Of a stretch of DNA of 64,000 nucleotides, positions 41,480-62,907 are shown piece after piece (positions within the stretch are counted from its first letter, which is position 1; each line of letters opens with the position of its first letter). Where the stretch lies: contig NZ_CP039690.1 of assembly GCF_005144885.1 (NCBI RefSeq), forward strand, positions 496,001-560,000. The letters run 5' to 3'. The DNA comes from Phreatobacter stygius (GTDB taxonomy: Bacteria; Pseudomonadota; Alphaproteobacteria; Rhizobiales; Phreatobacteraceae). The notes under the pieces are model-generated. The model did no database searches. It was not told the origin of the DNA and saw only the letters and a program-made list of their open reading frames with translations. The position numbers and the translations under genes were made by a program.

Positions 41480-41549
41480 AGGTCGGAATATGACAAGTTT
41501 CAACTATGCCGGCCAGGCCAGGCGGTGCGATCATTCAAGACAACAGAGC

Positions 41550-42290: not shown

Positions 42291-42302
42291 AAGGCTCGTC
42301 TG

Positions 42303-44158: not shown

Positions 44159-44206
44159 GGCGCGATCGCCTCGAGTTGAATCGGAGCGCCTTGCATATTG
44201 GTCAGC

Positions 44207-44374
44207 CGTCCTTCGAGGCTCGCAAGAGCTCGCACCTCAGGATGAGGAATAATGTTGAATTGCATCACCGTTTCTCATGACTTGTCGATCGCGCTGTACT
44301 TTCTTCGCGGTCACTGCTGCAACTCTCTACCCTCCTCATCCTGAGGTGCGAGCTCTTGCGAGCCTCGAAGGACG
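44207..44374. repeat. 42-base perfect inverted repeat, REP-like pair
   Basis: Arms 44207-44248 and 44333-44374 are exact reverse complements over 42 bases, separated by 84 bases. Each arm begins or ends with the CCTTCGAGG and CCTCAGGATGAGG words common in interspersed palindromes of Hyphomicrobiales. It fills the 321-base gap (44159-44479) between the dioxygenase and the transporter genes. A related 14-base piece GGTCAGCCGTCCTT occurs at about 44200 and again near 63838. Confidence 0.9.
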
Positions 44375-44479
44375 ACTGAGTTATGTGCAAGGCCGCTCGC
44401 CTGCTTCATTTCGAGGCGACCGGACTGTAGCCGCGCCGGCGAACCGAACCGTGTCGACACAACAAGGGGAATCCGACAC

Positions 44480-47507: not shown

Positions 47508-48265
47508 GCCCAGCCCTCGAAGTCCATGACCTGACGCTGCGCTTCGCCAATTTCGTCGCGGTCAACAAGGTCTCCATGACGGTTGAGACCGGCAGCCGCC
47601 AGGCGATCATCGGCCCGAACGGCGCCGGCAAGACCTCGCTTGTCCACGCCCTGACCGGCGCCATCCCGAGCAGTGCCGGCACGGTCAGCATCTGCGGCAT
47701 CGACGCGACCCGACTGTCGCAGGCGGCCCGGGTTCACCACGGCCTGGCGCGCACCTTCCAGATCAACCAGCTGTTCACCGGCCTGACGGTTCTGGAGAAC
47801 GTCCTGATGGCGATCCTCGAGCGCGACGGCCGGGCGAGCATCTTCTGGCGCTCGGTCGCGGCCGAACGCGTGGCGATCGACGAGGCCAAGGCGCTGCTGG
47901 AGCTCGTCGGCCTCGGGCCGCAGGCGGGCGCCCGCGTCAATGCCTTGCCCTATGGCATGCGCCGGCTGATCGAGATCGCCATTGCGCTGGCGACCAGGCC
48001 GAAAGTGCTCATTCTCGACGAGCCGGCGGCCGGCGTGCCGACCACCCAGAGCGAAGCGATCTTCGAGCGCATCGCCGCCTTGCCGCGCGACCTGACGCTC
48101 TTGTTCATCGAGCACGACATGAACCTGGTGTTTCGCTTCGCCGAAAAGATCACCGTGCTGGTGGCCGGCGAGGTCCTGACCGAGGGACCGCCCGCGGCGA
48201 TCTCGGCCGACGAGCGGGTGCGCGAAGTCTATCTCGGACGCCGGGGGCACCATGCCGCTGCTTGA
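47504..48265 (+). CDS. ABC transporter ATP-binding protein, LivG type
   Basis: A 253-residue ATPase. GPNGAGKTSLVHALTG is Walker A, LARTFQINQLFTGLTV the Q-loop region and ILDEPAAGVPTTQSE Walker B. The usual LSGG signature is altered: it reads ALPYGMRRLIEIAIALA, as in many LivG proteins. Overlaps the LivF gene by 14 bases. Confidence 0.93.
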   Translation: MSPALEVHDLTLRFANFVAVNKVSMTVETGSRQAIIGPNGAGKTSLVHALTGAIPSSAGTVSICGIDATRLSQAARVHHGLARTFQINQLFTGLTVLENVLMAILERDGRASIFWRSVAAERVAIDEAKALLELVGLGPQAGARVNALPYGMRRLIEIAIALATRPKVLILDEPAAGVPTTQSEAIFERIAALPRDLTLLFIEHDMNLVFRFAEKITVLVAGEVLTEGPPAAISADERVREVYLGRRGHHAAA

Positions 48266-48947
48266 GATCGAGAACCTCGCCTCGGGTTATGGCGATGCCG
48301 TCGTCATCGAGGACATCAGCCTTGCCATCGACGAACAGGAGGGCCTTGCCGTGCTTGGCCGCAACGGCGTCGGCAAGACCACGCTGATGCTGAGCATCAT
48401 GGGCCATGCCGCGCAGATGAGCGGCGCGCTGCGCTGGAACGGCACCGACGTCTCCGGCCTGCCGGCCTATGCCCGCGCCCGCCTCGGGCTTGGCTGGGTG
48501 CCGCAGGAGCGCGATATCTTCCCCTCGCTGACGGTCGAGGAAAACCTCCTGATCGCCGGCCGCCCGGGGCGCTTCCGGCTTGCCGACATCTATGGCCTGT
48601 TTCCAAGGCTGAGCGAGCGCCGCCTCAACATGGGCGACAAGCTCTCCGGCGGCGAGCAGCAAATGCTCGCCATTGGCCGGACGCTGATGACCAATCCGAA
48701 ACTCCTGCTGCTCGACGAACCCTTCGAGGGCCTCGCCCCGGTCATCGTCGAGGAGCTCGAACGGACCCTGCAGCGGCTGCGCCGCGACGAAGGTTTTGCC
48801 ACCGTCATCGTCGAGCAGCGCGCCGAGGATGCGCTGCGGCTGAGCGACCGGGCGATCGTGCTCGACCGCGGGCGCATCGTGCTGTCGGGCCAATCCAGCG
48901 AACTGCTCGCCGATTTCGACCGCGTCCAGCAATGGATCGCGGTCTGA
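48252..48947 (+). CDS. ABC transporter ATP-binding protein, LivF type
   Basis: A 231-residue ATPase. GRNGVGKTTLMLSIMG is Walker A, LSGGEQQMLAIGRTLM the signature and LLLDEPFEGLAPVIVEEL Walker B. Completes the transporter of five proteins. The creatininase-like gene follows 17 bases later in the same operon. Confidence 0.93.
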   Translation: MPLLEIENLASGYGDAVVIEDISLAIDEQEGLAVLGRNGVGKTTLMLSIMGHAAQMSGALRWNGTDVSGLPAYARARLGLGWVPQERDIFPSLTVEENLLIAGRPGRFRLADIYGLFPRLSERRLNMGDKLSGGEQQMLAIGRTLMTNPKLLLLDEPFEGLAPVIVEELERTLQRLRRDEGFATVIVEQRAEDALRLSDRAIVLDRGRIVLSGQSSELLADFDRVQQWIAV

Positions 48948-48964
48948 AGACAGGAATTGCCCCG

Positions 48965-49792
48965 ATGAAACAGGATCCGCTGATGGCCGGGACCATGGCC
49001 GAAATGACCGGTGATGCCATCAAGGCGGCCGCCGCCCGCGGCGCCCTGGCGATCCTGCCGGTCGGCGTGATGGAATGCCACGGCCCGCATTTGCCCATCG
49101 GCACCGATGCCTTCATCGCCCACGCCCTGGCGCGCCTGACCGCCGGTTACGCGACAGCCGAGGGCACGGAAGCGCTGGTCGCACCATCCTTTTATTGGGG
49201 CATCAACAGCGTGCTGGCGGAGTTTCCCGGCAGTTTCCGCATCCGGCCGGAAACCGCCGCCATGCTGCTCGACGATATCCTCGGCTCGCTTCTGGCCAAT
49301 GGCTTCGGCCAGGTGCTGGTCGTCAGCCACCATGGCGACCTCGCTCATAACGAGATGATCCGCGACGTGCTGGCGGCGCGCCATGCCCGGGGCGACAGCG
49401 GCCTTCGCTGGCTCTATGCGCCGTTCCGCTGGCGCATGTTCGCGCGGCTCGGGCTGACCGGCGCCGAGCCGATCTGGGTGCCCTGGGAGCCGGGGCCGGA
49501 TCTGGAGAACTTCCGCCTGACCGGGGTCTTCGGCGTTCACGCCGACGAATATGAGACGGCGGCGATCGTCCGCTATTTCCCGGAGACCGTCGATTACCAG
49601 GCGCTGCGCCACCTGCCGCCGACCAAACTCACCCGCGACGACCTGCCGGCCTGGCGCAACGGCGGCGCCGATGCGCGCGCCTTGACGCCGGACGGCTATT
49701 TCGGCGCACCGAACCCGGTCGATCCGGATCTCTGGCGCCACTTCGACGAGACGGCCAGGATCATGGCGGAGGCGCTGGTGGCGGGGAGATGA
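48965..49792 (+). CDS. creatininase-family amidohydrolase
   Basis: A 275-residue metal-dependent hydrolase. LPVGVMECHGPHLPIGTDAF holds the Glu, His and Asp metal ligands and VSHHGDLAHNEM the second set. The family cleaves cyclic or linear amides (creatinine, some formamides). Following the uptake operon, it may act on an amide formed from or attached to the transported aromatic; unproven. The ATG at 48965 follows AGGA; an in-frame ATG at 48932 overlaps the LivF end. Confidence 0.87.
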   Translation: MKQDPLMAGTMAEMTGDAIKAAAARGALAILPVGVMECHGPHLPIGTDAFIAHALARLTAGYATAEGTEALVAPSFYWGINSVLAEFPGSFRIRPETAAMLLDDILGSLLANGFGQVLVVSHHGDLAHNEMIRDVLAARHARGDSGLRWLYAPFRWRMFARLGLTGAEPIWVPWEPGPDLENFRLTGVFGVHADEYETAAIVRYFPETVDYQALRHLPPTKLTRDDLPAWRNGGADARALTPDGYFGAPNPVDPDLWRHFDETARIMAEALVAGR

Positions 49793-49830
49793 GGGGGCAA
49801 GCACAGCTGAACTAACCCTCTCCCAAAGGG

Positions 49831-51251
49831 CTACGACATTCACACATCGTGGGTTGCGAGGAGGATGCGGCTCTGATTCCTTGATCCGCAGCTAGCGGGA
49901 GGAAGCAGATGCAGGAGCATGGGCTGGGGCGGTTTGGCGACCGCCGGCTGGAAAAAGGGGGGTCTTTTTGCACCGCCGGCTGGTCGAGTGGGGTGGTCGT
50001 GGCATTCGGATTCGGCCGCTGGGCGGCAACCGGCGAGGCGAGATGCGCCTGACCCGTTTGCTGCGCAATCCGGCGGTGACGGTCGAAGAGATGGCGGCGA
50101 CGGCGCAAGAGCGCACGGCGGAACGGTGTATCGGCCGGCCGGTGCTGGCGATCCAGGACACCACCAGCATCAAGTCGAGCGGCGGCGGTGGGCTTATGTT
50201 GCATGCGATGATCGCGGTGGATGCCGAGGACGGCGCCATCCTGGGGTTGGCGCATGCTCAATTCATGAGCCGCGACAAAGGCTTGCGTGGGGAGCGGAAA
50301 TCCCGCCCATTGGCGGCGAAAGAGAGCCGGCGCTGGCTGGAAGGGGGCGAAGACGCGGCCAGGATCGGGGCGCTGGCTCGTAGCGTGACGGTGATCGCCG
50401 ATCGCGAGGGCGATATCTTCGAGGCCTTTGCACGACGCCCGAAGGACATCGAGCTTCTGGTCAGGGCGGCCCAAGATCGCAGCCTCGGCGATGGCGGTCT
50501 GCTGTTTGCCACCGTGGATGCCTTGCCTGAGGCCGGCCGGACCCTGCTGGACCTGCCGGCCAAGCCCGGCCGCAAGGCGCGCCAGGCGCGACTGGCGGTC
50601 CGCTTCATGGCGGCGCAATTGGCACGTCCCAAGGCCGGCACACCAGGACTTGAGGCCCTGCCGGCGAGCGTCGGCATGACGCTGGTCGATATCCGCGAAG
50701 TCGATCCACCGGCGGGCGAGCCGGCGGTTCACTGGCGGCTCTTGATCTCGCGCGCGGTCCGCGACATCACCGAAGCCCTGGCGGTGGCCGAGCTCTACCG
50801 GCGTCGTTGGGCCATCGAGCAGTTGTTCCGCACCCTGAAGACCCAGGGCTACGACATCGAAGGCCTGCGCATCGCCGAGGATGTGCCCCGTCTCAAGCTG
50901 GTCATGGCAGCGCTGGTGGCCGCGGTCAGCGTCCAGCAACTCGTCCATGCTCGTGACGGCGCATCGCCTCAGACCCCGCTCAGGCCGCTCACCGATGCCT
51001 TCCAGCCGGAAGATCAGCCCTTGCTCGAGGCGCTCTCGGCCAAGCTGGAGGGCAAGACCCAGCGGCAGAAGAATCCACACCCCAAGGGCTCGCTCGCCTT
51101 TGCCGCCTGGGTTTGCGCAAGGCTCGGTGGCTGGACCGGATATTACGGCAAGCCTGGCCCGATGGTCATGCTACAGGGCTGGCTATCCTTCTACGATGCC
51201 AAGCAGGGATGGGACGCTCTCGCCCAGGCAAAAGATGTGTGAATCTAGTAG
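49831..51251 (+). mobile_element. IS4-family insertion sequence flanked by 9-base target duplication
   Basis: A 1421-base element. Ends are 18-base inverted repeats (49831-49848 and 51234-51251; 16 of 18 match; CTAC(G/T)A(C/G)ATTCACACATC). The direct repeat CCCAAAGGG is at 49822-49830 and 51252-51260. Removing the element and one copy restores the palindrome CCCTCTCCCAAAGGGAGAGGG, so it jumped into a REP-like repeat. It carries one transposase gene with a probable frameshift near its start. Confidence 0.92.
49909..51242 (+). pseudogene. IS4-family transposase, frameshifted near the N-terminus
   Basis: From ATG 49909 (after GGGAGG) the frame reads MQEHGLGRFGDRRLEKGG, the expected IS4-type start, then leaves the frame in a run of A5 G6 TC T5 at 49952-49969. 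The rest continues in the -1 frame from about 49968 to 51242: QDTTSIKSS and VIADREGDIFEAF give the two Asp, and YRRRWAIEQLFRTLK is the YREK motif with the Glu. One missing base in a homopolymer, or a ribosomal -1 shift, would explain it. A sequencing error is also possible. Confidence 0.65.
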
Positions 51252-51405
51252 CCCAAAGGGAGAGGGTGGCAGCGTCAGCTGCCGGGTGAGGGGTCGTCCA
51301 TCTCCGGATGAGACTGCATGCGACGCCGGCGTCGGCATCAATTCTGGGCGCTTACGCCCCTCACCCGGGTCCTGACGGACCCACCCTCTCCCTTTGGGAG
51401 AGGGT
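51252..51405. repeat. REP-like inverted pair next to the IS4 element
   Basis: A unit starting CCCAAAGGGAGAGGGTGG at 51252 is repeated in inverse orientation up to 51405, and both units also carry GGGTGAGGGG. The distal unit ends in the perfect palindrome 51383-51405 (ten-base arms ACCCTCTCCC and GGGAGAGGGT with a TTT centre). The proximal palindrome was split by the IS insertion. Such pairs can act as transcript-end hairpins; this one lies between a plus-strand gene and the 3' end of the P450 gene. Confidence 0.85.
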
Positions 51406-51427
51406 TGATTCGGTTGTGCTTTTCGAC

Positions 51428-52600
51428 CTACCCCGCATCCCACGTCACCGGCAGGTTCAACAGCCCCCGGAACGCCCAGCCGCCGATGCGCACCGGTTCG
51501 TCCCCGACGATCCGCAACCCCTTCAGCCGGGCGAACACGGTCGGCAGCGCGACCTCGGCGATCATCGCCCGCGAGGCCCAGGCGCCGGCGCAGAAATGCG
51601 GGCCGGCGCCGAAGGCGATGCTCTTGGATGAATCGCGCCTGACGTCGAACTGCTCGGCGCGGTCGAAATAGCCCTCGTCGCGATTGGCCGAGCTGAACAT
51701 GAAGAAGATCCGGTCATCCCGCTGGAAGGCGATGTCGCCGATCGTCCAGGGCTTGGCGATCCGGCGCGGCGACATGCCGATCGGCGAGATCCAGCGGGCA
51801 TATTCCTCGAACACCTGCAGCCAGGACACCGCCCCGGTCCGCGCCAGCTCGAGCTGGTCGGGATGGGTGAGCAGCGCCCAGACCGTGCCGGCAATGGCGT
51901 CGCGCGGCTCGTTCTGGCCGCCGCTGATGGCAAGCTTCACATTGGCCCTGACGCTCTCCATCGGCAGCCCCGCCGCCAGCTGGACGCTGATCAGGCTCTG
52001 GTCGGGCGCCTTGTCGAGCACCGGCAACATGGCGTCGATCGCCGCATCGATGCCCGCCGTCGCCGCCCGGCAGCGCGCCTCGACCTCGGGGTTGCCGGCA
52101 TAATTCGCGATGCCGTCGATCATCGCCTGCGACCAGGAGTCCATATCCTCGAAGCGCATATGGGTCAGGCCGGTCATCGACTTCAGGCATTCGGCCGAGA
52201 ACGGCAACGCGAAATCCCGGCAGAAATCGATCCGGCCCGCCGGATCCAGCTCGTCGAGAATACGGTTCGCATGGGCCTGGAACTGGGCGGTCCAGTGGTT
52301 CTTGACGGTCTTCGGCGAGACCGTCGGAAAGATCGCCTTGCGCTCGGCCATATGCGCCTCGCCGTCCTTGCGCATCATGTTGTGGCCCATCAGCCGGTTC
52401 ATCAGCCCCTCCGGCTGGTGCGAGCTGAAGACGTCGATCTGCTTCTCGCAGACGAAGATGTCGTCGCGCTTGGCGAACACCGTGCCGCCGAGCTGCGGCA
52501 CGAAGGCGATCGGCGCCTCCCGGCGCAGCCGTGCCAGAGCCGGATAGGGATCGCTCCAGAAGGCGGCCATATCGATATCGACACGCGGGGCAGTGCTCAC
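51428..52600 (-). CDS. cytochrome P450
   Basis: A 390-residue bacterial P450. EEYARWISPIGMSPRRIA holds the ExxR motif, FGAGPHFCAGAWASRAMIAE the heme-binding loop with the Cys ligand. The I-helix region LAISGGQNEPRDAI replaces the usual A(G)xxT pattern: Gln-Asn-Glu-Pro stands where Gly-x-Asp/Glu-Thr is expected, so the oxygen-activating Thr is missing. GTG 52600 with AGAGAGG upstream is the likely start. It is divergent from the biosynthetic operon across 333 bases and may oxidise its product. Confidence 0.9.
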   Translation of the reverse strand: MSTAPRVDIDMAAFWSDPYPALARLRREAPIAFVPQLGGTVFAKRDDIFVCEKQIDVFSSHQPEGLMNRLMGHNMMRKDGEAHMAERKAIFPTVSPKTVKNHWTAQFQAHANRILDELDPAGRIDFCRDFALPFSAECLKSMTGLTHMRFEDMDSWSQAMIDGIANYAGNPEVEARCRAATAGIDAAIDAMLPVLDKAPDQSLISVQLAAGLPMESVRANVKLAISGGQNEPRDAIAGTVWALLTHPDQLELARTGAVSWLQVFEEYARWISPIGMSPRRIAKPWTIGDIAFQRDDRIFFMFSSANRDEGYFDRAEQFDVRRDSSKSIAFGAGPHFCAGAWASRAMIAEVALPTVFARLKGLRIVGDEPVRIGGWAFRGLLNLPVTWDAG

Positions 52601-52933
52601 GGGCAGCCTCTCTTTGCGGCGGACGGCCTTGAGGGCGGCGAAGCCCGGTGGAATTGATGATCCATCACGACGGAGGATTCCGACAAGAGCGCTTTGCGCG
52701 CGGCCGTCCATGCGCCGAGGTCGCGGCGGTCGAACCCGAAGACCTGGCCGGAGAGCCAAGGGTGCGCCGGCCTCGGTGAAGCGCCCCGTGCGACGCCTCC
52801 GGTGTCGCGGACGAGACGACAGTCCGGTTGTAGGCGACGTCCGGTTGTAAGCGAAATGTCATCCAAACGAATGATGAAGAGCGCGGCATGGCGGGCGATA
52901 GATAAATGGCCTTAACCCTCAGCGGAGTTGACC
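52601..52933. promoter_or_regulatory. divergent control region between P450 and biosynthetic operon
   Basis: Gene-free stretch of 333 bases. It contains a 16-base direct repeat (52822-52837 and 52839-52854, see separate entry). No clear -35/-10 pair was found for either side. An AT-richer patch lies at 52855-52915 in front of the operon. Confidence 0.45.
52822..52854 (+). repeat. 17-base-period tandem repeat, GTCCGGTTGTA(G/A)GCGA
   Basis: Two copies match at 15 of 16 positions with a 17-base period, about 80-110 bases before the first gene of the operon. The spacing is near one and a half DNA turns. Direct repeats of this kind are used by response regulators and some activators. Confidence 0.6.
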
Positions 52934-55159
52934 ATGGCTCCGGCGCATGTACGGTCAAAACCGCTGGATCAAGATCTGCACGCGGTTTCTGAGCTCGCCG
53001 CTGCTTGTAAATGGTCAAACGCCCCGGACCACGCGCTGGATCAAGGCGGCCCGTTGTTTCGCCCCTATCAGCGGATGGGCGTCGATTTTGCCGATATCCC
53101 CGTCGTCGATCACCTCAAGAGCGTCACCACGCGGCATCCCGACAAGCTCGCGATCAGTGACGGCACCGATCGGCTGACCTACGCCGCGCTTCTCCAGGCG
53201 GTCGAGACGCTGTCCCGCCGGATCGCCGCCGTCGTTCCCGATGGCCAGGCGATCGGGATCTTTCTGGCCAATTCGGCATGGTACCCCGTGGCGATGCTGG
53301 CGAGCATGGCGGCCGGGAGGCCTGCGGTCCCGCTCAACACGCGAGACCCCCGCTCTCGGATCGACGAGATCGCGGCCACGGCGCGACTCTCGGCCGTCAT
53401 GTGCCTCGGCAGTGCCGACCAGGCGGGTTGGACGCAGAAGATCCGGTGGATCGACGTCGCCGCCGGCGGCATGCCGGCAGGCCGGCGGACGCCGGCACCA
53501 CCCCTGTCCCGTTCGGTCTCGGTCGAGGCTCCGGCCATCGTCCTCTACACCCCGGGCGGCACCGGACACCCCCAGGGCATCGTCAACAGCCAGCGCAGCC
53601 TGTTGCGGCGGGTCCAGCACTATGTCGACGCCTGCCACATCAATGCCGAGGACGTTTTCCTTCCCCTGGCCGGCCTCGCCACGATCGCCGGTTGCCGGGA
53701 GATTCTCGCCGCCCTCTTGAGCGGCGCCACGCTGCATCTCATCGAGGTCGAAGCGGTCGGCTTGCGCGCCGTCCGCGGCCGAATGCGAGCCGATCGCGTC
53801 ACGGTCACCTGTCTGGCGCCGGCGCTGCTTCGCCCGCTCCTGGCGGACGCCGCCGTCGATGCCTTCCGGTCGCTCAGGCTGGCCCGGATCGAGGGTGAGG
53901 CGGTGTCGTGGACCGATATCGCGCCGCTGCGCCAGGCCGTTTCGAAGGCCTGCCTGATCCAGATCGGCTACGGGTCGGCGGCGGCCAACGCTGCGCAATG
54001 GTTCTTGCCCCCCGACTGGCCGGATCACGGCCCGTCGGTGCCGGCCGGCAGGCTTCTGCCCGGCCTCAGCTTCGCGATCGTCGACGAAGACGGGCGCCCG
54101 GTGCGGCCTGACGAGAGCGGCGAGCTCTTGATCAGAGGCCCGGATGTCCTGCTCGGCCATTGGGACAGCGGGACCGTCATGGCCGCGGAATCGGATCCGG
54201 ACGATCCAGCTCTCCGGATCGTCGCAACCGGCGATCTCGCCCGGCTCGATGACCAGGGCCTTCTGCGGATCGTCGGCCGCAAAGGGGGCCAGATCCAGAT
54301 CAACGGCGCGGTCGCCGCCGCGCCGGCAGGCAATCGCCTCGCACCCAGGCAGGATGACACGCTTCCCATCCTGTTCCTGCTCCCGGGATCCGTTGGTTAT
54401 GGCCCGAGCTTCGCGGCCTTCGCCGCCTCCATGGGCAAGGTTGCCCGGGTGGCGCCCGTCCGCTATCCCGGGCTCCAGCAGATCTTGAGCGGACAGAACT
54501 CGCTCGCCGCCATCGCCACGGCGGCAATCGGGCAAATCGACCGGACCCAGCCCTCCGGCTCCGTCCGGCTTCTCGGCCACTCGCTCGGCGGCGCGGTGGC
54601 TTTCGAGGTTGCCGCGCGGCTGCTGGCCGCCGGTCGGTCCGTGACCTTCCTGGGGATCCTCGACACCAGCATCGTGGGCGAGCCGCGGGACTATCGCGAG
54701 ACCTTGATCCGCACAATCCACCGGATCCGGACCAATCGCGTCACCGCATCCCGGATGGTGTGCCGTGCGCTCGCAAAAGTCACGGTCGCGCTCGGCTGCG
54801 AGGCGCGCCTCGCCCGGATCCTCGATCGCCATCCCAAGGGGCAGTTCAACGCCACCTGCTTCAGGATCAAGCTGGAACTGCAGGAGGTCCTGCGGTCGCG
54901 GGCTTTCTTCGCCTGGCTGGCGGGACCGAAACCGATGCTGCCGATCACCGCCACCCTGTTCCGCTGCAACCGGCCGGGAATGCCCGAGGCGCTCGGCTGG
55001 GATCGTGCATTCACCCGCCTCGACGTGGTGCCGATCGCCGGTGGTCACCTCGACCTCATCGTCGAGCCGCATCTGGCAACCAACCGTCCGCTTATCGAGA
55101 AGGCCGTGGCCGAAACCTATTCGCCAGCCGAAACCGGCAAGCGGGAGAAAGGGTCATGA
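52934..55159 (+). CDS. adenylation-like domain fused to thioesterase, no carrier domain
   Basis: A 741-residue protein. Residues about 50-465 are an AMP-binding fold: YTPGGTGHPQG (205-215) stands for the phosphate loop but has Pro, Gly and Gln where Ser, Ser/Thr and Lys are usual; GDLARLDDQGLLRIVGRKG is the hinge. The C-terminal lid with the A10 Lys is missing. Residues 480-735 are an alpha/beta thioesterase: GHSLGG with S550, D577 and H705 as triad. No phosphopantetheine site is inside, so the separate carrier at 59788 may be its partner. The start ATG at 52934 is two codons after a TTG. Confidence 0.85.
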   Translation: MAPAHVRSKPLDQDLHAVSELAAACKWSNAPDHALDQGGPLFRPYQRMGVDFADIPVVDHLKSVTTRHPDKLAISDGTDRLTYAALLQAVETLSRRIAAVVPDGQAIGIFLANSAWYPVAMLASMAAGRPAVPLNTRDPRSRIDEIAATARLSAVMCLGSADQAGWTQKIRWIDVAAGGMPAGRRTPAPPLSRSVSVEAPAIVLYTPGGTGHPQGIVNSQRSLLRRVQHYVDACHINAEDVFLPLAGLATIAGCREILAALLSGATLHLIEVEAVGLRAVRGRMRADRVTVTCLAPALLRPLLADAAVDAFRSLRLARIEGEAVSWTDIAPLRQAVSKACLIQIGYGSAAANAAQWFLPPDWPDHGPSVPAGRLLPGLSFAIVDEDGRPVRPDESGELLIRGPDVLLGHWDSGTVMAAESDPDDPALRIVATGDLARLDDQGLLRIVGRKGGQIQINGAVAAAPAGNRLAPRQDDTLPILFLLPGSVGYGPSFAAFAASMGKVARVAPVRYPGLQQILSGQNSLAAIATAAIGQIDRTQPSGSVRLLGHSLGGAVAFEVAARLLAAGRSVTFLGILDTSIVGEPRDYRETLIRTIHRIRTNRVTASRMVCRALAKVTVALGCEARLARILDRHPKGQFNATCFRIKLELQEVLRSRAFFAWLAGPKPMLPITATLFRCNRPGMPEALGWDRAFTRLDVVPIAGGHLDLIVEPHLATNRPLIEKAVAETYSPAETGKREKGS

Positions 55160-56163
55160 ACCTGACTTTGCCCAGCGCGGCGTTCCAGGAATTCAGCAAG
55201 GACGTCTTGCGGCTCGATGCCCCATCCGAGGTCGAGCGCATCGCCGAAACCATGCGCAAGCAGGTCCTCGGGCTGTTCCGCCGCCGTGGCGTGGTCGTCG
55301 GCCTGTCCGGCGGCATCGACAGTTCCGTCGTCGCCGCCTTGAGCGCGCGCGCGCTGGGCAAGGACAAGGTGCTGGGACTGTTCATGCCCGAGCACCATTC
55401 CTCCGCCGATTCCCTCCGGCTCGGCCGTCGTATCGCGGCCCAGCTCGGCATCGACACCATCCTGGAGGACATCACGCCGGCGCTGGAGGGCCTCGGCGCC
55501 TATCGCCGGCAGATCGAGGCGATCAGGACCGTCGTTCCCGACTATGGCGAAGGCTGGAAATGCAAACTGGTGCTCGCGCCGGTTCTCGAAAGCAACGGCA
55601 TCAATGTGACCCGCCTGACGGTGCAGAGCCCCGAAGGCGAAACCCGCACCGTGCGGCTTCCGTCCGGCGCCTATCTGCAGATCGTCGCCGCGACCAACTA
55701 CAAGCAGCGCGTGCGCAAGATGACTGAATATTATCATGCCGACCGCCTGCATTACGCGGTCGCCGGCACGCCCAATCTCCTGGAATACGACCAGGGATTC
55801 TTCGTCAAGCAGGGCGACGGAATCGCCGACCTGATGCCGATCGCGCATCTCTACAAGACCCAGGTCTACCAGCTCGCGGAATATCTCGGGATCGACGAGG
55901 AGATCCGGCGGCGGCCGCCGACCTCGGATACGTTCTCCATGCCGCAGAGCCAGGAGGAGTTCTACTTCGCCCTGCCCTATCACCTCACCGACCTGTGCCT
56001 CTACGCGGTGAACCACCAGATCTCCGCCGACGAGGCCGCGCCGGTCGTCGGCCTCACCCCGGCCCAGGTCCGCAGCGTCTTCAAGGACATCGACAGCAAG
56101 CGCCGCGGCACGCGCTATCTGCACGCGCCGCCCCTGCACGTCGCTTCAGCACTGAAGGACTGA
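55156..56163 (+). CDS. NAD synthetase (NadE)-like ATP-dependent ligase
   Basis: A 335-residue N-type ATP pyrophosphatase. VVGLSGGIDSSVVAAL is the PP-loop, LQIVAATNYKQRVRKM and AGTPNLLEYDQGFF with KQGDG are NadE motifs, and LYKTQVYQLAEYLG is the KT site. It has no glutaminase domain. Coupled by ATGA to the adenylation-thioesterase gene and 5 bases from an AsnB-like gene. A duplicate NadE in a biosynthetic operon suggests it adenylates and amidates another carboxylate, or supplies NAD locally; the first reading is inference. Confidence 0.88.
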   Translation: MNLTLPSAAFQEFSKDVLRLDAPSEVERIAETMRKQVLGLFRRRGVVVGLSGGIDSSVVAALSARALGKDKVLGLFMPEHHSSADSLRLGRRIAAQLGIDTILEDITPALEGLGAYRRQIEAIRTVVPDYGEGWKCKLVLAPVLESNGINVTRLTVQSPEGETRTVRLPSGAYLQIVAATNYKQRVRKMTEYYHADRLHYAVAGTPNLLEYDQGFFVKQGDGIADLMPIAHLYKTQVYQLAEYLGIDEEIRRRPPTSDTFSMPQSQEEFYFALPYHLTDLCLYAVNHQISADEAAPVVGLTPAQVRSVFKDIDSKRRGTRYLHAPPLHVASALKD

Positions 56164-56168
56164 CCGGC

Positions 56169-58196
56169 ATGTGTGGCATCGCGGGGATCGTCACGACAGG
56201 TGCGGCCGGAGCGGCCCCTTCGCGCGAGGCGCTGCTGCGCATGGCCGGGGCGCTGGCGCATCGCGGCCCGGACGAGCGGGGCCTGTACCGCGACGAGCGT
56301 GCCGGCCTTGCCCATGCCCGCCTGTCGATCATCGATCTGGCCAATGGCCAGCAGCCTCTGGCCGACACCGGCGACACGACCTGGATCGTGTTCAACGGCG
56401 AGATCTTCAATTACGTCGAACTGCGCGAAAAGCTGGTCGCGCTCGGCCACCGGTTCCGCACCCGCAGCGACACGGAAGTCATCGTCCACGCCTATCGCGC
56501 CTGGGGCCCGGCCGCCTTCGAGCGCATGAACGGGCAATGGGCCGTGGCGATCTGGGACAAGGTCGCCGGCCGTCTCGTCTTGTCGCGCGACCGGACCGGC
56601 ATCTGCCCGCTGCATCTCTGCGAACACCGGGGCCGCCTTTACTTCGCCAGCGAAGTGAAGGCCATTTTCGCCGCCGACGCGTCGATCCCCCGGGCCTTCG
56701 ATCCCGCCGGCATCGATCAGACCTTCACGCTCTGGACGGTCGTGCCGCCGCAGGGCGTGTTTCAGGGGATCACCGAGCTCCCGCCCGGGCATGTCCGCAT
56801 TCATGAAAACGGCAGCCACCGCGAATGGGCCTTCTGGAAACCGCGCTATCCCGAGATGTCGGGCCCGCAGGACGGTCAGTTCGCCGGCTCGCGCGACGAC
56901 GCGGTGGAGGCGGTGCGCAGCGCACTCGAAGCCGCGACCGCGCTCCGCATGGTGCGCTCCGACGTGCCGGTCGGCAGCTATCTGTCCGGTGGGCTCGACA
57001 GCTCGCTCGTCGCGGCGCTCGGCAGCCGCCTCGCCGGCGAGCGCTTCCAGACCTTCTCGCTGCGCTTTGCCGACGGCGAATATGACGAGACCCATTTCCA
57101 GCGCCTGATGGTCCGCGCGACCGGCAGCGAGCACCATGAAATGGTGGTGTCGCGCCGGGACATCGCCGAGGTCTTCCCTCAGGTGATCCACCACACCGAG
57201 CGGCCGATCCTCAGGACCGCTCCGGCGCCACTGTTCCTCTTGTCGAAACTGGTGCGCTCCCGCGGCGTCAAGGTCGTGCTGACCGGCGAAGGCGCCGACG
57301 AAATGTTCGCCGGCTACGACCTGTTCCGCGAAGGCAAGGTCCGCCGCTTCTGGGGTCGCCAGCCCGCCTCGACGTTCCGGGCGCGGCTGCTGGAGCGGCT
57401 CTACCCCTATCTCACCCGCTCGCCGGTGCAGCAGCAGGCCATGGCGCGCCAGTTCTTCGGCCGGGATATCCAGGCCTACCGGGCGCCGGGCTTTGCCCAT
57501 GACACGCGCTGGCGCACCACCAGCGCCATCAAGCGGCTGTTCTCCGCCGACATGCGGGCCGAGGCGGCGCGCCGGGACGCGGTGGCCGAACTGATCGCCC
57601 GGCTGCCCCCGGAATTTTCGCGCTGGAGCTTTCTGGCGCAGGACCAGCATCTGGAGATCCAGACGCTGCTGTCGGGCTACCTGTTGTCCTCGCAGGGCGA
57701 CCGGATGCTGATGGCTCACTCGGTCGAAGGGCGCTTCCCGTTCCTGGACGAGGACGTCATGGCGCTCGCAAATTCGCTGCCGGCCGCCTACAAGCTGCGC
57801 GTGCTCGACGAAAAGCACGTGCTGAAGCGCGTCGCCGAACCGATCGTGCCGGCGGAGATCGTGACCCGCAAGAAGCAGCCGTTCCGGGCGCCCAACGCCT
57901 TGTGCTTCGTCGCCTCCGATGCGCCGGCCTATGTCGCCGACGCGCTTTCGGAAACCGCGCTGCGCCGGGCCAATGTCTTCGACCCGCCATCGGTCGCCCG
58001 GCTCCTGAGCAAGTGCAAGGCGCAGGCCGAGGCCGGCGACGGCGACCTCTCCAATTCCGACAACATGGCGCTGGTCGGCGTGCTGTCGACCCAGCTCCTG
58101 CACCACGAGTTCATCGCGGGCCTTCCCGCGCCGGCGCGCAGTGTCGAATTGCGCGTCGATGTCGATCACGAGCACCGGTCCGAGGTCCTCATCTGA
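56169..58196 (+). CDS. asparagine synthetase B-like glutamine amidotransferase
   Basis: A 675-residue class II amidotransferase. MCGIAGIV gives the Cys2 nucleophile of the glutaminase, RGPDERG and FNGEIFNYVELR follow. The synthetase part has SYLSGGLDSSLVAAL (PP-loop) and LTGEGADEMFAGYDLF. It makes amides from carboxylates with glutamine nitrogen. In O-antigen and natural-product clusters such enzymes amidate uronic acids or peptide-like intermediates. The stop overlaps the next start (TGATG). Host asparagine supply cannot be excluded. Confidence 0.92.
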   Translation: MCGIAGIVTTGAAGAAPSREALLRMAGALAHRGPDERGLYRDERAGLAHARLSIIDLANGQQPLADTGDTTWIVFNGEIFNYVELREKLVALGHRFRTRSDTEVIVHAYRAWGPAAFERMNGQWAVAIWDKVAGRLVLSRDRTGICPLHLCEHRGRLYFASEVKAIFAADASIPRAFDPAGIDQTFTLWTVVPPQGVFQGITELPPGHVRIHENGSHREWAFWKPRYPEMSGPQDGQFAGSRDDAVEAVRSALEAATALRMVRSDVPVGSYLSGGLDSSLVAALGSRLAGERFQTFSLRFADGEYDETHFQRLMVRATGSEHHEMVVSRRDIAEVFPQVIHHTERPILRTAPAPLFLLSKLVRSRGVKVVLTGEGADEMFAGYDLFREGKVRRFWGRQPASTFRARLLERLYPYLTRSPVQQQAMARQFFGRDIQAYRAPGFAHDTRWRTTSAIKRLFSADMRAEAARRDAVAELIARLPPEFSRWSFLAQDQHLEIQTLLSGYLLSSQGDRMLMAHSVEGRFPFLDEDVMALANSLPAAYKLRVLDEKHVLKRVAEPIVPAEIVTRKKQPFRAPNALCFVASDAPAYVADALSETALRRANVFDPPSVARLLSKCKAQAEAGDGDLSNSDNMALVGVLSTQLLHHEFIAGLPAPARSVELRVDVDHEHRSEVLI

Positions 58197-59749
58197 TGCA
58201 CGACGCCATACCGCTCCTGCACGATTACCTCATCCACGCCGCCTCCAAGCTCGGCGGCAAGGTGGCCCTTGTCTGCGGCCAGCAGCGTGTCAGCTATCGT
58301 GAGCTCGAGGCGCGCTCCAACGCGATCGCGCGGCACCTGGCCGGAGCCGGCGTCGCCCGCGGCGACCGGGTGATGATCTTCGCCGACAACACGGTCGAGA
58401 CAGTGGTGAGCTTCTGGGCGGTGCTCAAGGCCAATGCCGTGGCCTGCATCGTCAATCCGCTCACCAAGAGCGACAAGCTCGGCTATCTCATCGACGATTG
58501 CCGGCCAGCCGCGCTCATCACCGACAGCCATCTGCACGCGATATTCGCGGAGCCGGTGCGCGGCCGCCCGTTCTTGCGCCGGGTGATCGTCTCCGGGCCG
58601 ATCGGCGACGCAGAGCTCTCAGGCCTGCCCGATGCGGTGCGCTGGGACACCGCGGTCGAGGCCGACCGCGGCGCGGCACCGGCACGCCTCTGCATCGACA
58701 TCGACCTCGCCGCCATCATCTACACCTCCGGGTCGACAGGCGATCCCAAGGGCGTGATGCTGACGCACCGGAACATGCTCGCCGCGTCCACGTCGATCGC
58801 CTCCTACCTGGCGCTGCGCGAAGACGAGGTGATCCTCAACGTCCTGCCGCTAGCCTTCGATTACGGCCTGTACCAGATGATCATGGCGTTCCGCGCCGGT
58901 GCCCGGCTGGTGCTCGAACGCTCCTTCGCCTTCCCGCCCCAGGTCCTGACCCTGATCGCCAGCGAGAAGGTCACCGGCTTTCCCGGCGTGCCCACCATCT
59001 TTGCCGCGCTGTCGAGGCTCTCATCCCTTGGCGATCACGATCTCTCCAGCATTCGCTACGTCACCAACACGGCCGCCGCCCTGCCGCTGAAGCACATCCG
59101 GCTGCTCCAGGAGCTGTTTCCGCGCGCCCGGGTCTATTCGATGTACGGCCTGACCGAATGCAAACGTTGCACCTATCTGCCGCCGGAAGACCTCGACCGC
59201 AAACCGCTGAGCGTCGGCATCGCCATCCCGAACACGGAAATGTGGATCGTCGACGAGAACGACCAGCGCGTCGGCCCCGAGGTCGTCGGCCAGCTGGTGA
59301 TCCGCGGCGCGACGGTGATGCGCGGCTATTGGGGCAAGCCGGAGGCGACCGCCCGGAAGCTCCGGCCCGGCCCGCTGCCCGGCGAGCTGGTGCTCTACAC
59401 CGGCGATTACTGCCGGATGGACGCGGAGGGTTACCTCTATTTTGTCGGCCGCGGCGACGAGATCATCAAATCCCGCGGCGAGAAGGTCGCGCCAAAGGAG
59501 GTGGAGAACGCACTGATGGATATTCCAGGCGTCACGGAAGCCGCGGTCATCGGCGTTCCCGATGACCTTCTCGGCCAGGCGGTGAAGGCCTTTGTGGTGA
59601 TCGAGCAAGGCCGGACCATCGGCGAGAAACAGATCCAGAAAGAGTGCCAGCGGCGGCTCGAAAGCTTCATGGTCCCGAAATATGTCGTCATCGCCGCCAG
59701 CCTGCCGCGGACCGATACCGGCAAGCTCAGCAAAAAGACCCTGTCATGA
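58196..59749 (+). CDS. acyl-CoA synthetase / carrier-protein ligase (AMP-binding)
   Basis: A 517-residue adenylate-forming enzyme with complete motifs: IIYTSGSTGDPKGVMLTHRN (phosphate loop), SMYGLTECKR (A5), YTGDYCRMDAEGYLYFVGR (A7-A8) and PRTDTGKLSKKTL with the catalytic A10 Lys. It resembles enzymes that load an acid onto a stand-alone carrier. The carrier gene follows 38 bases later. It is likely the functional loading enzyme of the operon, in contrast to the degenerate adenylation domain at 52934. Confidence 0.92.
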   Translation: MHDAIPLLHDYLIHAASKLGGKVALVCGQQRVSYRELEARSNAIARHLAGAGVARGDRVMIFADNTVETVVSFWAVLKANAVACIVNPLTKSDKLGYLIDDCRPAALITDSHLHAIFAEPVRGRPFLRRVIVSGPIGDAELSGLPDAVRWDTAVEADRGAAPARLCIDIDLAAIIYTSGSTGDPKGVMLTHRNMLAASTSIASYLALREDEVILNVLPLAFDYGLYQMIMAFRAGARLVLERSFAFPPQVLTLIASEKVTGFPGVPTIFAALSRLSSLGDHDLSSIRYVTNTAAALPLKHIRLLQELFPRARVYSMYGLTECKRCTYLPPEDLDRKPLSVGIAIPNTEMWIVDENDQRVGPEVVGQLVIRGATVMRGYWGKPEATARKLRPGPLPGELVLYTGDYCRMDAEGYLYFVGRGDEIIKSRGEKVAPKEVENALMDIPGVTEAAVIGVPDDLLGQAVKAFVVIEQGRTIGEKQIQKECQRRLESFMVPKYVVIAASLPRTDTGKLSKKTLS

Positions 59750-59787
59750 CGTGAGCCAGCAGCAAAACCGACGGGAGAACACAGCCA

Positions 59788-60054
59788 ATGTTAGCGACAA
59801 AGGCACCAGACGGCATCTACAGAGAGCAAATCCGGGATTTCCTGGCGTCGAACTTCTACTTGCCCGACGCCGATGTCCTGGAGGACCACACCTCGCTGAT
59901 CGACCAGGGCATCATCGACTCGACGGGTGTGCTCGAGGTGATCGGCTTCATCGAGGAAACCTTCGGCATCACGGTCGAGGACAGCGAACTCCGGCCGGAG
60001 AACCTGGATTCGATCCAGGGCATCGCGCATTACGTCACCCGCAAGAAAAGCTGA
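59788..60054 (+). CDS. stand-alone acyl/peptidyl carrier protein
   Basis: An 88-residue carrier protein. SLIDQGIIDSTGVLEVIGF contains the phosphopantetheine attachment Ser (S45) in a DST context, different from the DSL of fatty-acid carriers. The acidic helix EETFGITVEDSEL completes the fold. It probably carries the acid activated by the preceding ligase and is used by the thioesterase of the first gene. The methyltransferase gene starts 4 bases after the stop. Confidence 0.93.
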   Translation: MLATKAPDGIYREQIRDFLASNFYLPDADVLEDHTSLIDQGIIDSTGVLEVIGFIEETFGITVEDSELRPENLDSIQGIAHYVTRKKS

Positions 60055-60058
60055 CGAC

Positions 60059-60787
60059 GTGAGCCAAGAAATCAACGTCGCGAGCCACGTCGCGAGCAGC
60101 GGCGAGATCGACGTCGCCGGCGCCTATGGCAAGGGCCGCACCCTGTTCATGGGCGTGGAACTGCTGGTTGCGCCCGGCGCGCTGGTTCCGCGGCCGGAGA
60201 CCGAATTGCTCGGCGCGACCGCCGTCGATGTCCTGCGCCGGATGAACCGCGCCGAGCCACGCGTCGTCGACATGTGCTGCGGCGCCGGCAATCTGGCCTG
60301 CGGCATCGCGCATCATATTGCCGGCGCGCGCGTCTGGGCGAGCGATCTCACCGACGGCTGCGTCGAAGTCGCACGCCGCAACGTCGCCCATCATGGCCTC
60401 GAGGACCGCGTCTCGGTGCTGCAGGGCGACCTGTTCGACGCCCTTTCGGGCCTGGCGCTCGACGGCACGATCGACGTGATCGTCTGCAACCCGCCCTATA
60501 TTTCGGACAAGCGGCTGGAGGGCGACCGCGCCCATTTGCTGGCGCTCGAGCCGCGCGAGGCCTTTGCCGCCGGCCCCTACGGCCTGAGCATTCACATGCG
60601 GGTGGTGAAAGACGCGCCGCGCTATCTGCGGCCAGGCGGCGTCCTCGTCTTCGAGGTCGGCCTCGGCCAGGACCGGCAGGTCGCCATGCTCCTGGAGCGC
60701 GGCAAGCTCTACGAGGGCATCGGCGTGGTCATGAACGACGCCGGCGAGGGCCGGGTCGTGATGGCGCGCGCCAAAGCGCCGGCATGA
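60059..60787 (+). CDS. PrmC/HemK-like SAM methyltransferase
   Basis: A 242-residue class I methyltransferase. LVPRPETELL and VVDMCCGAGNLACGIAHH bind SAM and VIVCNPPYISDKRL is the NPPY motif of N-methyltransferases acting on amide or amine nitrogen. It lacks the N-terminal release-factor-binding helical domain of PrmC (the NPPY is near residue 143). In this operon it probably methylates an amide nitrogen of the carrier-bound intermediate; inferred. GTG start at 60059. Confidence 0.87.
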   Translation: MSQEINVASHVASSGEIDVAGAYGKGRTLFMGVELLVAPGALVPRPETELLGATAVDVLRRMNRAEPRVVDMCCGAGNLACGIAHHIAGARVWASDLTDGCVEVARRNVAHHGLEDRVSVLQGDLFDALSGLALDGTIDVIVCNPPYISDKRLEGDRAHLLALEPREAFAAGPYGLSIHMRVVKDAPRYLRPGGVLVFEVGLGQDRQVAMLLERGKLYEGIGVVMNDAGEGRVVMARAKAPA

Positions 60788-60815: not shown

Positions 60816-61670
60816 CTACAGCTTCCGGGCGAACAGCGGCGAGAAGCGGTTCGACGTGCCGTTCATCTCGCGCTTGTTGCCCCAGTACCTGAACTTCTCC
60901 ACCGTGGCGCCGCCATCCGTCGGGTTCCACTCGATGACGACGTGGGGCGCGGTTTCGGACGTGGTCACCCGGCCGGAATTCACCGGCATGCTGACCGGCG
61001 GAGCCAGGGTGTTCTTGGGCGCGGATTCGACATAGGTGACGATGCCCCTGTCGGAAAAATAGTACCAGTAATAGCTGCCGTCATAGACCACCCACCAGCC
61101 GAGCAGCCACTCCGGCAGGTCCCACTCGTCCGGCGGGTTCGCGGTGTTGGCGACCTCCCAGAACAGGATGCGCGGCTGGCCGAAAATATGGCCTTCGCTC
61201 ATGCCGCCGGGCGCACCCGCCTTCTGCTTGATCGTATCGGTGTCCCATAGCTCGGTATGCACGCCGGGCGTGTTGTCGCGGAACACCAGTATGCCCTGCC
61301 GGCCGTGCAGGTAGTCCTTCATGTCGGACAGGCTTCTGATATTGCCGGCGCCGTCGCGCTTGACGTTCTCGGTCCGGCCATAGCGGCTGGTCAGGTACAT
61401 TTCGAGCTCGTCCACCGCGCCGATGTGATAGCGGCCGTTGATCACCGCATTTGGCCGCCTGTAGCTGCTCTTCGGGATGGTCTGGTGGGCGGCGTTGAGC
61501 GCCCAGCTCATCTGCAGGCAACAGGGCGTCGGGTTCGAGCCGGGATTGGCTTTCTTGAGATCGGCGATGTAGTCGGCTATGCCCTGCGCGCCGGCCGCCT
61601 TCAGGGCGTGGTGCATGGGATACTTGGACCACATGACATCGAAATTCGCCCGGATATGCGCGAATGCCAT
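60816..61670 (-). CDS. Tae4-like peptidoglycan amidase (type VI effector family) with C-terminal extension
   Basis: A 284-residue protein. NPTPCCLQMSWALNAAH contains a Cys (C50) in the position of the Tae4 nucleophile, and GRQGILVFRDNTPGVHTELWD the catalytic His (H138). Tae4 enzymes cut the D-Glu-mDAP bond of rival cell walls after type VI delivery. From about residue 185 there is an extra region rich in Trp and Tyr (LLGWWVVYDGSYYWYYF). No signal peptide, no type VI genes and no Tai4-type immunity gene are seen near. GGGAGG precedes ATG 61670. Confidence 0.72.
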   Translation of the reverse strand: MAFAHIRANFDVMWSKYPMHHALKAAGAQGIADYIADLKKANPGSNPTPCCLQMSWALNAAHQTIPKSSYRRPNAVINGRYHIGAVDELEMYLTSRYGRTENVKRDGAGNIRSLSDMKDYLHGRQGILVFRDNTPGVHTELWDTDTIKQKAGAPGGMSEGHIFGQPRILFWEVANTANPPDEWDLPEWLLGWWVVYDGSYYWYYFSDRGIVTYVESAPKNTLAPPVSMPVNSGRVTTSETAPHVVIEWNPTDGGATVEKFRYWGNKREMNGTSNRFSPLFARKL

Positions 61671-61932
61671 GGCAGGCCTCCCTCGCCGCGGGACCTTGGA
61701 GCCAGAGAGTATGGCAGCCCGGGCCCGGCGAACAAGCCGCCAGGGCGTGTCGCGATCGCGCAAGCGCCACGGCCGGTTCGCCACGGCCCCCGGCGCTTGG
61801 TCCCGCGACCCCTTGGCCCTTGGCAAGCCGGACCGCCTCGCCGATACTCGCAGCCTCTGACCGTCGGGGGTGGCGCCGGGTGACAATGGCAATGTGCCTC
61901 CCTGCCGGACGACGGCGCAGCTGAGATAGACG

Positions 61933-62907
61933 ATGATCGCCTTCTCCACCGATGCGGTGGCGCCACACGAGCGCTTCGACCACTGGCGTGAGGTGCGCGG
62001 CAAGAAGCTGTTCGGCGTGACCATCGAGCTCGAACCCGAGCGCAGGGCGGACTTTTCCGGCAGCTTCCGGGCCTCGACCCTTGCCGGGGCGACGCTCGCC
62101 ACCATCAGCGCATCGGCCTATCGGGTCAGCCGGACCGCCGCGGATATTGCCGCGATGCCGGGCGACAGCCTGGTCGTCTCGCAGCAGATCGCCGGGCCGG
62201 GCTGGTGCGATACCGGCACCGACCAGCCGTTTTTCGTCACCGGCGGAACGCTGGTGGCCGGCCATTCCGACCGCGCTTTCGCCGGCATACCGTCGACGCA
62301 GGCGCCGTTTCGCTTCCGCACCGTGAAGATCCCGCTGCAATCGGGACCGTCCTTCCCGCGGCCCGCGCAGCTCCTCGACCTGCCATCCTTCGATCTTGGC
62401 GCCAGCGGTTATTCGCACCTGATCGCCGCCTCGCTCACCGCCCTGTTCGACGATACGGCGCCGCTGGCGGAGACCGAGGCGGAACAGTCGATCGGCGCCC
62501 TGGGCCAGATGGTCCTGCTCGCCCGCGCGCTTGCCGCTCGCGGCGCGCCGCCGAGCCGGCTGGCGCTGCGCACCGCCCATCGCCATGCGCTCCGGCAGAT
62601 CATGCGGCGCCATTTCCATCGCATGGACCTGTCGGCCGAGATCGCCGGCGCGATGCTCGGCATCTCCAAGCGGCAGGTCCATGCCATTTTCGAGCCGACC
62701 GGCGGGTCGTTCATGACGACGCTCCAGGCCATCCGCATCGAGGAAGCCTGCCGCCAGCTGGTCGCGCAGCCGGCCACGCGCGTCACCGAGATCGGCTTTG
62801 CCTGCGGCTTCGGCAGCCTCGCGACCTTCTACCGGGCTTTCCAGGGGACAGTCGGGATCGCGCCGAACGACTACCGGCGCATGGCATGGGACCAGGCGAT
62901 CCACTGA
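61933..62907 (+). CDS. AraC-family transcriptional regulator
   Basis: A 324-residue regulator. The N-terminal part resembles the AraC-binding-like domain (APHERFDHWREVRGKKLFG). The C-terminal HTH pair has MDLSAEIAGAMLGISKRQVH and VTEIGFACGFGSLATFYRAF, ending in GIAPNDYRR. It is divergent from the Tae4-like gene across 262 bases and may control it. Effector unknown. Confidence 0.92.
   Translation: MIAFSTDAVAPHERFDHWREVRGKKLFGVTIELEPERRADFSGSFRASTLAGATLATISASAYRVSRTAADIAAMPGDSLVVSQQIAGPGWCDTGTDQPFFVTGGTLVAGHSDRAFAGIPSTQAPFRFRTVKIPLQSGPSFPRPAQLLDLPSFDLGASGYSHLIAASLTALFDDTAPLAETEAEQSIGALGQMVLLARALAARGAPPSRLALRTAHRHALRQIMRRHFHRMDLSAEIAGAMLGISKRQVHAIFEPTGGSFMTTLQAIRIEEACRQLVAQPATRVTEIGFACGFGSLATFYRAFQGTVGIAPNDYRRMAWDQAIH

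Follow-up and report, generated by a model that had tools for sequence, protein, structure and literature searches.

A six-gene operon on the plus strand (52934-60787) of a 64,000-nucleotide stretch of the Phreatobacter stygius genome (hereafter the window; positions 496001-560000 of a single 7.35 Mb contig) carries a cassette for a NadE-like ATP-pyrophosphatase, an AsnB-like amidotransferase, a stand-alone adenylating ligase and a stand-alone acyl carrier protein. This cassette is patchy in occurrence and widely shared among bacteria, and it probably serves to assemble an amidated acyl group on the carrier that it encodes. Tentatively, we propose as one possible fate of that group its transfer from the carrier to the nitrogen of a 4-amino sugar in an exported glycan (N-acylation). 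The six open reading frames meet at overlaps or gaps of 38 bases at most, in keeping with the single operon proposed in a sequence-only reading of the same DNA, and Pfam and NCBIfam calls agree with the family identities proposed there. Positions are those of the window unless a contig or genome is named.

52934-55159, plus strand: remnant adenylation domain fused to a thioesterase (Pfam AMP-binding and Thioesterase, and alignment; ATG start), with the adenylation remnant at ~53099-54298 and an apparently intact thioesterase at ~54365-55156
55156-56163, plus strand: NadE-like ATP-pyrophosphatase (NAD_synthase) without a glutaminase domain; 4-base overlap with the preceding gene
56169-58196, plus strand: AsnB-like glutamine-hydrolysing amidotransferase (Asn_synthase and GATase); 5-base gap
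58196-59749, plus strand: stand-alone adenylating ligase (AMP-binding plus C-terminal domain); 1-base overlap
59788-60054, plus strand: stand-alone acyl carrier protein (PP-binding PF00550, E 6e-7); 38-base gap
60059-60787, plus strand: HemK/PrmC-type N-methyltransferase, an accessory gene, NPPY motif kept; 4-base gap

The first gene is listed from an upstream TTG at 52928; its ATG start is at 52934.

Recurrence and enzyme families of the cassette

A contig scan with the NadE-like protein confirmed 114 loci, 80 of which were kept, with titles from alpha-, beta-, gamma- and deltaproteobacteria, Myxococcota, Acidobacteria, Planctomycetota, a Zixibacterium, a Spirochaete, an Opitutales and a Trueperaceae member. 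Fifty-seven of the 80 were evaluable, having at least 7 kb on either side of the NadE-like gene. Counting a ligase or AsnB as present if it matched with at least 250 bits at any place in the locus, both were found in the flanks of 57/57 loci, and the grouping is therefore not accidental; the carrier was found in 55/57. Three of these loci are less clear, L054 and L084 having ligases just 36-37% identical (on the opposite strand in L054) and L082 having AsnB and ligase ~7 kb away on the opposite strand. The PrmC-like gene (42/57) is an accessory, and a thioesterase (TE) or adenylation-thioesterase (A-TE) match was seen in 43/57. The label 'orphan' given in the sequence-only reading holds for function and fails for the gene set, which is common across many phyla. 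Two further candidates for core membership were rejected: c17, a secreted protein that looks SGNH-like by eye and has no Pfam or NCBIfam match (just 8/80 loci), and a CysE/EpsC-type transferase, c20 (just 7/80). Searches of one open-licence literature library, judged by title or abstract start, yielded nothing on the cassette, which is no proof of absence, and the passages of PMC9850573 consulted do not mention it.

Stretches from 18 genomes in which the NadE-like family exceeds its cut-off gave the same picture, with NadE, ligase and carrier in 18/18, AsnB in 17/18 (it was not found in the G265 stretch) and the PrmC-like gene in 9/18. We call clade 1 the eight genomes with at least 70% identity to the window, the order NadE-AsnB-ligase-carrier and a TE (8/8), and clade 2 the ten with 50-59% identity, mostly the order AsnB-carrier-ligase-NadE and no TE (0/10); these are labels for identity and gene order, not tree branches. 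Gene order is variable at the named loci with ~59-68% identity. The family is patchy, exceeding its cut-off in 15/398 genomes of the phylum and in 4/61 relatives, including 3/12 of the genus. Plasmids also carry the cassette, with 116 of 72,556 records matching at E<=1e-60, of which 76 were Sinorhizobium. On pSymB of Sinorhizobium meliloti a four-gene clade-2 form is annotated asnB, acyl carrier protein, acyl-CoA ligase and nadE, and strain 1021 has the same four genes. This form is 57% (NadE), 47% (AsnB), 53% (ligase) and 41% (carrier) identical to the window proteins, yet differs in gene order, lacks the thioesterase and PrmC-like genes and adjoins minCDE. Its carrier is probably the orphan acyl carrier protein SMb20651, reportedly the subject of a 2009 paper. 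On a Nitratireductor plasmid (L199:3328-13011) a clade-2 cassette adjoins genes for TniB/TniQ and a Mu-type transposase, which points to mobility. More distant ligases were also seen, namely one 40% identical and adjoining a carrier-like gene elsewhere in the P. stygius genome (G000:C1:2006884-2008395), met in a control stretch, and others 41-43% identical in cassette-free genomes of the genus.

The NadE-like protein belongs to NCBIfam NF002048/PRK00876 (506.6 bits against a cut-off of 313). Alignment, an AlphaFold2 model (predicted local distance difference test score, pLDDT, 85.9) and Foldseek agree on an ATP-pyrophosphatase fold with its SGGxDS loop; all 50 Foldseek matches listed were NAD or NMN synthetases (best 2e18, E 2.3e-19), so that model and search confirmed the NadE fold and did not reveal the substrate. 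A family-specific insert lies at about residues 112-176 (55489-55683), where the model predicts strands, and invariant across 39 aligned relatives are S51-G52-G53, D55-S56 and G204-T205...D212-Q213-G214-F215-F216-V217-K218-G220-D221-G222. A housekeeping role for the NadE, AsnB and PrmC genes was rejected, given the separate copies elsewhere in the genome: a full NadE at 3341745, four more GATase_7 places besides the window AsnB, and a PrmC over its curated cut-off at 2261498 (G000:C1). The sequence-only reading took the operon to be dedicated to biosynthesis and to hold a carrier and two amide-forming ATP-pyrophosphatases, and this is supported; the finding that would have refuted it, NadE and AsnB being the only copies in the genome, did not occur. 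A second NadE is likewise present in 18/18 genomes with the family, at E<=1e-30 in 16/18 and more weakly, over the family cut-off, in G167 and G282 (frames of 695 and 826 amino acids). NF002048 members over the cut-off in the 18 genomes have a ligase and carrier beside them, and AsnB in 17/18; given this setting and the other NadE in each genome, 'NAD(+) synthase' is probably a misnomer for them. A public record gives one cassette member that curated name, together with a NAD biosynthesis Gene Ontology term.

The AsnB-like protein starts Met-Cys (catalytic Cys2) and keeps the ATP loop SGGLDSS. By profile score it falls within the asparagine synthase family (TIGR01536, 551 against a cut-off of 267.1) and falls short of both the XrtA amidotransferase TIGR03108 (386.8 against 816.9), its second NCBIfam match, and the N-acetylglutaminylglutamine amide amidotransferase TIGR03104 (364.6 against 570.1). 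The best NCBIfam match of the ligase, the XrtA ligase TIGR03098, is also under its cut-off (467.2 against 592.35). Two residues on which amino-acid adenylation domains rely, Asp and Lys, are retained in the ligase, and its pocket, D-Y-Y-T-V-N-M-R-C at positions mapped by motif on to GrsA numbering, is identical in 58/77 aligned rows, the M-R pair recurring in 76/77; in the sole exception, L023, the contig ends before the ligase and the row is probably A-TE instead. The pocket Arg suggests a substrate with an acid group. As the first pocket residue is changed to S, G, N, V or A in several loci, an amino-acid substrate is not certain in every locus. The carrier has a candidate phosphopantetheine Ser45 in a D-S-T motif, within a conserved DSTGVLE, and matches the ornithine-lipid OlsHI carrier family NF052616 at E 5e-15, below cut-off (55.6 against 130). 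The PrmC-like protein exceeds the cut-off for HemK TIGR00536 (154.1 against 115.5), with CNPPYIS conserved, and stays under that of the release-factor methyltransferase PrmC, TIGR03534 (169.9 against 199.1), its match starting at profile position 49 of 253 with the N-terminal part missing. Since its gene is found in only 42/57 loci, N-methylation, a step of the sequence-only scheme, is not a core step.

Proximity to genes for exported glycans

Recurrent neighbours of the cassette at the named loci are genes for polysaccharide export, sugar-phosphate transferase, DegT aminotransferase, nucleotide-sugar dehydratase/epimerase, nucleotidyltransferase, flippase and glycosyltransferase. A separate neighbour scan, on genes from crude GC-based calling, covered 111/146 non-core neighbours, from 10/12 loci, and matched the XrtA glycosyltransferase family TIGR03013 in three of the 111. 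In whole genomes, a Bac_transf (PF02397) gene was located no more than 12 kb from the cassette in 8/18 against 0.26 expected (P 6e-11), and in 5/10 clade-2 genomes, none of which is among the named loci, against 0.14 expected (P 1e-7), the expected counts being based on rounded genome sizes. This proximity test was not blind, three of the five clade-2 positives (G307, G284, G397) having been known already; its P value is tiny all the same. Control stretches matched the Bac_transf or the export model in 0/20 cases, compared with 6/18 and 3/18 cassette stretches. Beside some beta/gamma- and deltaproteobacterial loci there is also a hexapeptide transferase gene, with CysE/EpsC-type best matches under cut-off.

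In Mesorhizobium a neighbouring operon, which we call the companion operon, encodes a PseC/LegC-like aminotransferase (DegT), a short sugar-phosphate transferase, a LegB-like 4,6-dehydratase, an export protein and a marker protein of no known family, which by eye looks like a propeller. The LegB-like score is under cut-off (410.7 against 475), as is the PseC score of the Bradyrhizobium aminotransferase (306.6 against 423.5); in Bradyrhizobium the same kinds of gene, plus a nucleotidyltransferase, surround the cassette in another order. The marker occurs in 8/8 clade-1 genomes, 0/10 clade-2 genomes and 4/42 cassette-free genomes, the latter hand-picked and not random (Fisher P 9e-7 overall). 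P. stygius itself has the nucleotidyltransferase, DegT, sugar-phosphate transferase, LegB-like, marker and export genes in a row at 6711.9-6718.3 kb (L189:11910-18316). In four other genomes (G402, G408, G274, G289) the companion genes lie on a different contig from the cassette; in each of the four our script recovered four or five of the six genes, and the sugar-phosphate transferase is present. LegB-like and DegT-like genes are thus found in both Mesorhizobium and P. stygius, and their co-occurrence with the cassette is confined to clade 1.

The adenylation-thioesterase gene and flanking DNA

The first gene of the operon was compared with 40 homologs in which motifs of an adenylation (A) domain, a carrier and a TE could be recognised; 38 came from loci titled Mesorhizobium. 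One of the 40, L011, is not intact throughout, its frame overrunning the TE end into NadE. Such A-carrier-TE homologs occur in Mesorhizobium and elsewhere in the P. stygius genome. Relative to them, the window gene has lost in frame everything between the end of its A domain and the start of the TE (A_C subdomain and carrier), and its A core motif reads YTPGGTGHPQG where the homologs have YTSGSTGRPKG. The features of an A-carrier-TE module (A3 Lys, A_C subdomain, carrier Ser) are accordingly not found in it. Of positions invariant in the 40 copies, 20/126 are changed in the A domain and 1/89 in the TE (Fisher P 1.3e-4), compared with 0 to 5 A changes and 0 to 5 TE changes in five comparison copies. 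Judged by this alignment, the adenylation domain is decayed and the thioesterase is kept under constraint, so that of the adenylation-thioesterase in the sequence-only reading the thioesterase stands and the active A domain does not; as a loading or release module the gene was rejected for its A part. TE-only matches are found at the same-genus loci L066 and L070, at eight Bradyrhizobium-titled loci and in Tardiphaga (L018 and L031).

Two related genes were met on the way. A paralog in the P. stygius genome near 6.72 Mb (L190:1893-4796, minus strand) has the A3 motif and carrier Ser intact, although Pfam called only A and TE; it lies ~3.5 kb beyond the companion operon, and farther along are another AsnB, a Wzy_C-type gene and a glycosyltransferase gene. 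On a plasmid of Mesorhizobium sp. AR07 the A-TE frame (L011:7199-10969, plus strand) runs without a stop into NadE and has a TE end unlike those of its relatives; as the public record moreover shows no annotated gene there, the copy seems to be broken.

The divergent gene upstream of the operon, to which the sequence-only reading had assigned a final oxidation, lies outside the cassette:

51428-52759, minus strand: cytochrome P450 (Pfam p450), open reading frame as listed; probable extent 51428-52606

This P450 was rejected as a tailoring enzyme and as an operon member, since it accompanies the cassette in 0/57 evaluable loci, occurs in cassette-free genomes and is syntenic in one of these, the same-genus genome G400. 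Close relatives were found in 4 of 61 other genomes (91, 77, 71 and 62% identity), in all of which the NadE-like family stays below its cut-off, and three cassette-bearing relatives in that set of 61 are without the P450 at the same threshold. DNA similarity to G400 ends at 52611, inside the listed reading frame, and the P450 therefore probably starts at ~52606 and the listed frame is too long. In G400 the DNA matching 38916-49830 is followed directly by the P450, and both the cassette and a stretch of 1.4 kb (~49831-51251) with a DDE transposase gene (49968-51239, plus strand) are missing. The block kept in G400 (38916-52611) holds a LigAB ring-opening dioxygenase, a branched-chain type ABC transporter, a creatininase and the P450, and is perhaps an aromatic-compound catabolic locus; on the synteny and on its distribution, the P450 groups with this left flank. 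A clean empty site was not obtained, G400 having the left flank and P450 without the cassette and, in the stretch taken, no match to the right flank of the window; the insertion point is thus bounded on the left only. Directly 3' of the operon lies a convergent gene (60816-62105, minus strand) matching Tae4, a type VI secretion amidase effector family (PF14113, E 4e-11), the like of which was matched in 0/57 evaluable loci. A DegT-family aminotransferase gene is also present in the window at 15608-16663 (plus strand), ~36 kb from the cassette.

Competing explanations and implications

In the scheme that we tentatively favour, the carrier would be loaded by the ligase with a small acid that it has activated, probably an acidic amino acid. 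AsnB, together with the NadE-like enzyme using ammonia, would then convert carboxyls of the tethered molecule or its precursor to amides (or an amide to an amidine), and the PrmC-like enzyme, where encoded, would methylate the new nitrogen. In Rhizobiales of clade 1, P. stygius included, the acyl group would pass to the free 4-amino group of a sugar made by the companion dehydratase/DegT-like operon, and the glycan carrying the acylated amino sugar would be exported; transfer or editing of the acyl group may fall to the thioesterase. The loading of an acid on the carrier is the only step to follow directly from family knowledge, and we infer the later ones, along with the substrate, the order of steps, the acceptor and the transferase. 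In butirosin biosynthesis, by BtrI/BtrJ/BtrK-type logic, an amino acid is held on a carrier during tailoring; the stand-alone ligase and carrier are shared with the cassette, whereas the tailoring is decarboxylation there and would be amidation here. By sequence, the cassette has both the dedicated carrier and the loading enzyme that carrier-fed sugar N-acylation would call for. Among the systems compared, the closest precedent for such acylation is itself a predicted one: according to PMC6519341, the wfp O-polysaccharide locus of Flavobacterium psychrophilum has a dedicated acyl carrier protein and a PglD-like transferase predicted to acylate UDP-Qui2NAc4N, that is, a carrier feeding an acyl group to the 4-amino group of a bacillosamine-type sugar. 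There the chain is fatty-acid-like, whereas the cassette pairs an adenylating ligase with two enzymes for amidation and lacks a transferase.

Several observations weigh against transfer to a glycan. No gene for glycans turned up next to the cassette of the window, which is also without a dedicated sugar N-acyltransferase, and in the P. stygius genome the companion operon is unlinked to it, 6 Mb away. The S. meliloti and Rhizobium plasmid forms have minCDE and genes for transport as neighbours; in S. meliloti the closest gene with a glycan annotation, for a lipopolysaccharide biosynthesis protein, is 12.5 kb off, and none is annotated within 12 kb of the Rhizobium form. In ten of the 18 genomes Bac_transf genes are absent within 12 kb, and both this limit and the marker were chosen after some loci had been seen. 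DegT proximity failed as a general rule, a DegT gene lying within 12 kb in just 3/18 genomes, all Mesorhizobium or Bradyrhizobium, and so the amino-sugar part of the scheme is not general; Bradyrhizobium moreover has a different epimerase-type gene where Mesorhizobium has the LegB-like one. Owing to relatedness and small numbers, tests of the marker within three families are weak (P 0.018, 0.061 and 0.055). The four cassette-free genomes with the marker have no close cassette ligase (best 43% identity), and the companion operon therefore works without the cassette.

Because the window form and the four-gene S. meliloti and Rhizobium forms have no adjoining glycan genes, we regard as a serious, if somewhat doubtful, rival the production of a free small amide or osmolyte, for which the acid would be loaded, amidated, sometimes N-methylated and released (by the thioesterase where encoded), the glycan neighbours reflecting mobility or shared regulation. 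A thioesterase held under constraint while the A domain decays would fit such a product, as would the ABC and HlyD exporter genes that adjoin the cassette at some Mesorhizobium loci. Proximity to glycan genes far above chance and the co-occurrence of the marker throughout clade 1 argue for the glycan instead, and 14/57 loci have no TE or A-TE match.

Nearer to the glycan scheme, the operon could be a diverged XrtA/PEP-CTERM polysaccharide set (ligase TIGR03098, amidotransferase TIGR03108 and carrier) doing the same job, with NadE and PrmC replacing the decarboxylase that we take to be a member of that set. The two share enzyme kinds, a closest ligase family, a near-closest AsnB family and a glycan setting; beside one Nitrosomonadales locus scanned are genes related to an ATPase and a response regulator associated with XrtA, both under cut-offs (a second locus, L054, carries homologs), and the XrtA glycosyltransferase family TIGR03013 was matched in 3/111 neighbours, a count given without its cut-off. 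We nevertheless consider this unlikely: the ligase and AsnB scores are below both curated cut-offs, for which plain family membership was rejected, the cassette adds NadE-like and PrmC-like enzymes, and no exosortase turned up in NCBIfam scans of a few Rhizobiales neighbours, in which none was specifically searched for. Quite unlikely, too, is a bolder form of our scheme in which the NadE-like enzyme and AsnB act in sequence on one carrier-bound carboxyl, taking an amide to an amidine that the PrmC-like enzyme could N-methylate; the product would be an amidine or bis-amide cap for polysaccharide amino sugars, and a relative of NAD synthetase would have been recruited for it from NAD metabolism across many phyla while still being annotated as housekeeping. 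The resemblance of the carrier to the ornithine-lipid OlsHI family might point to a membrane-lipid head-group pathway, yet with a score less than half the NF052616 cut-off this is very improbable. Least credible is backup NAD and asparagine synthesis under nitrogen limitation, to which family membership of NadE and AsnB lends itself by sequence; it is opposed by the other NadE in all 18 genomes, the steady association with ligase and carrier, the family-specific NadE insert and invariants, and the patchy occurrence.

Inferences on NAD metabolism from genomes are misled where a family labelled NAD(+) synthase is, as in these 18 genomes, part of a biosynthetic cassette. Its presence in genetically tractable rhizobia, including on S. 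meliloti pSymB, gives an orphan carrier protein a set of partner enzymes and a testable chemistry. If the amidated acyl group is indeed transferred to a glycan, the cassette would represent a new route for placing amide-bearing groups on the exported polysaccharides of soil- and plant-associated bacteria.

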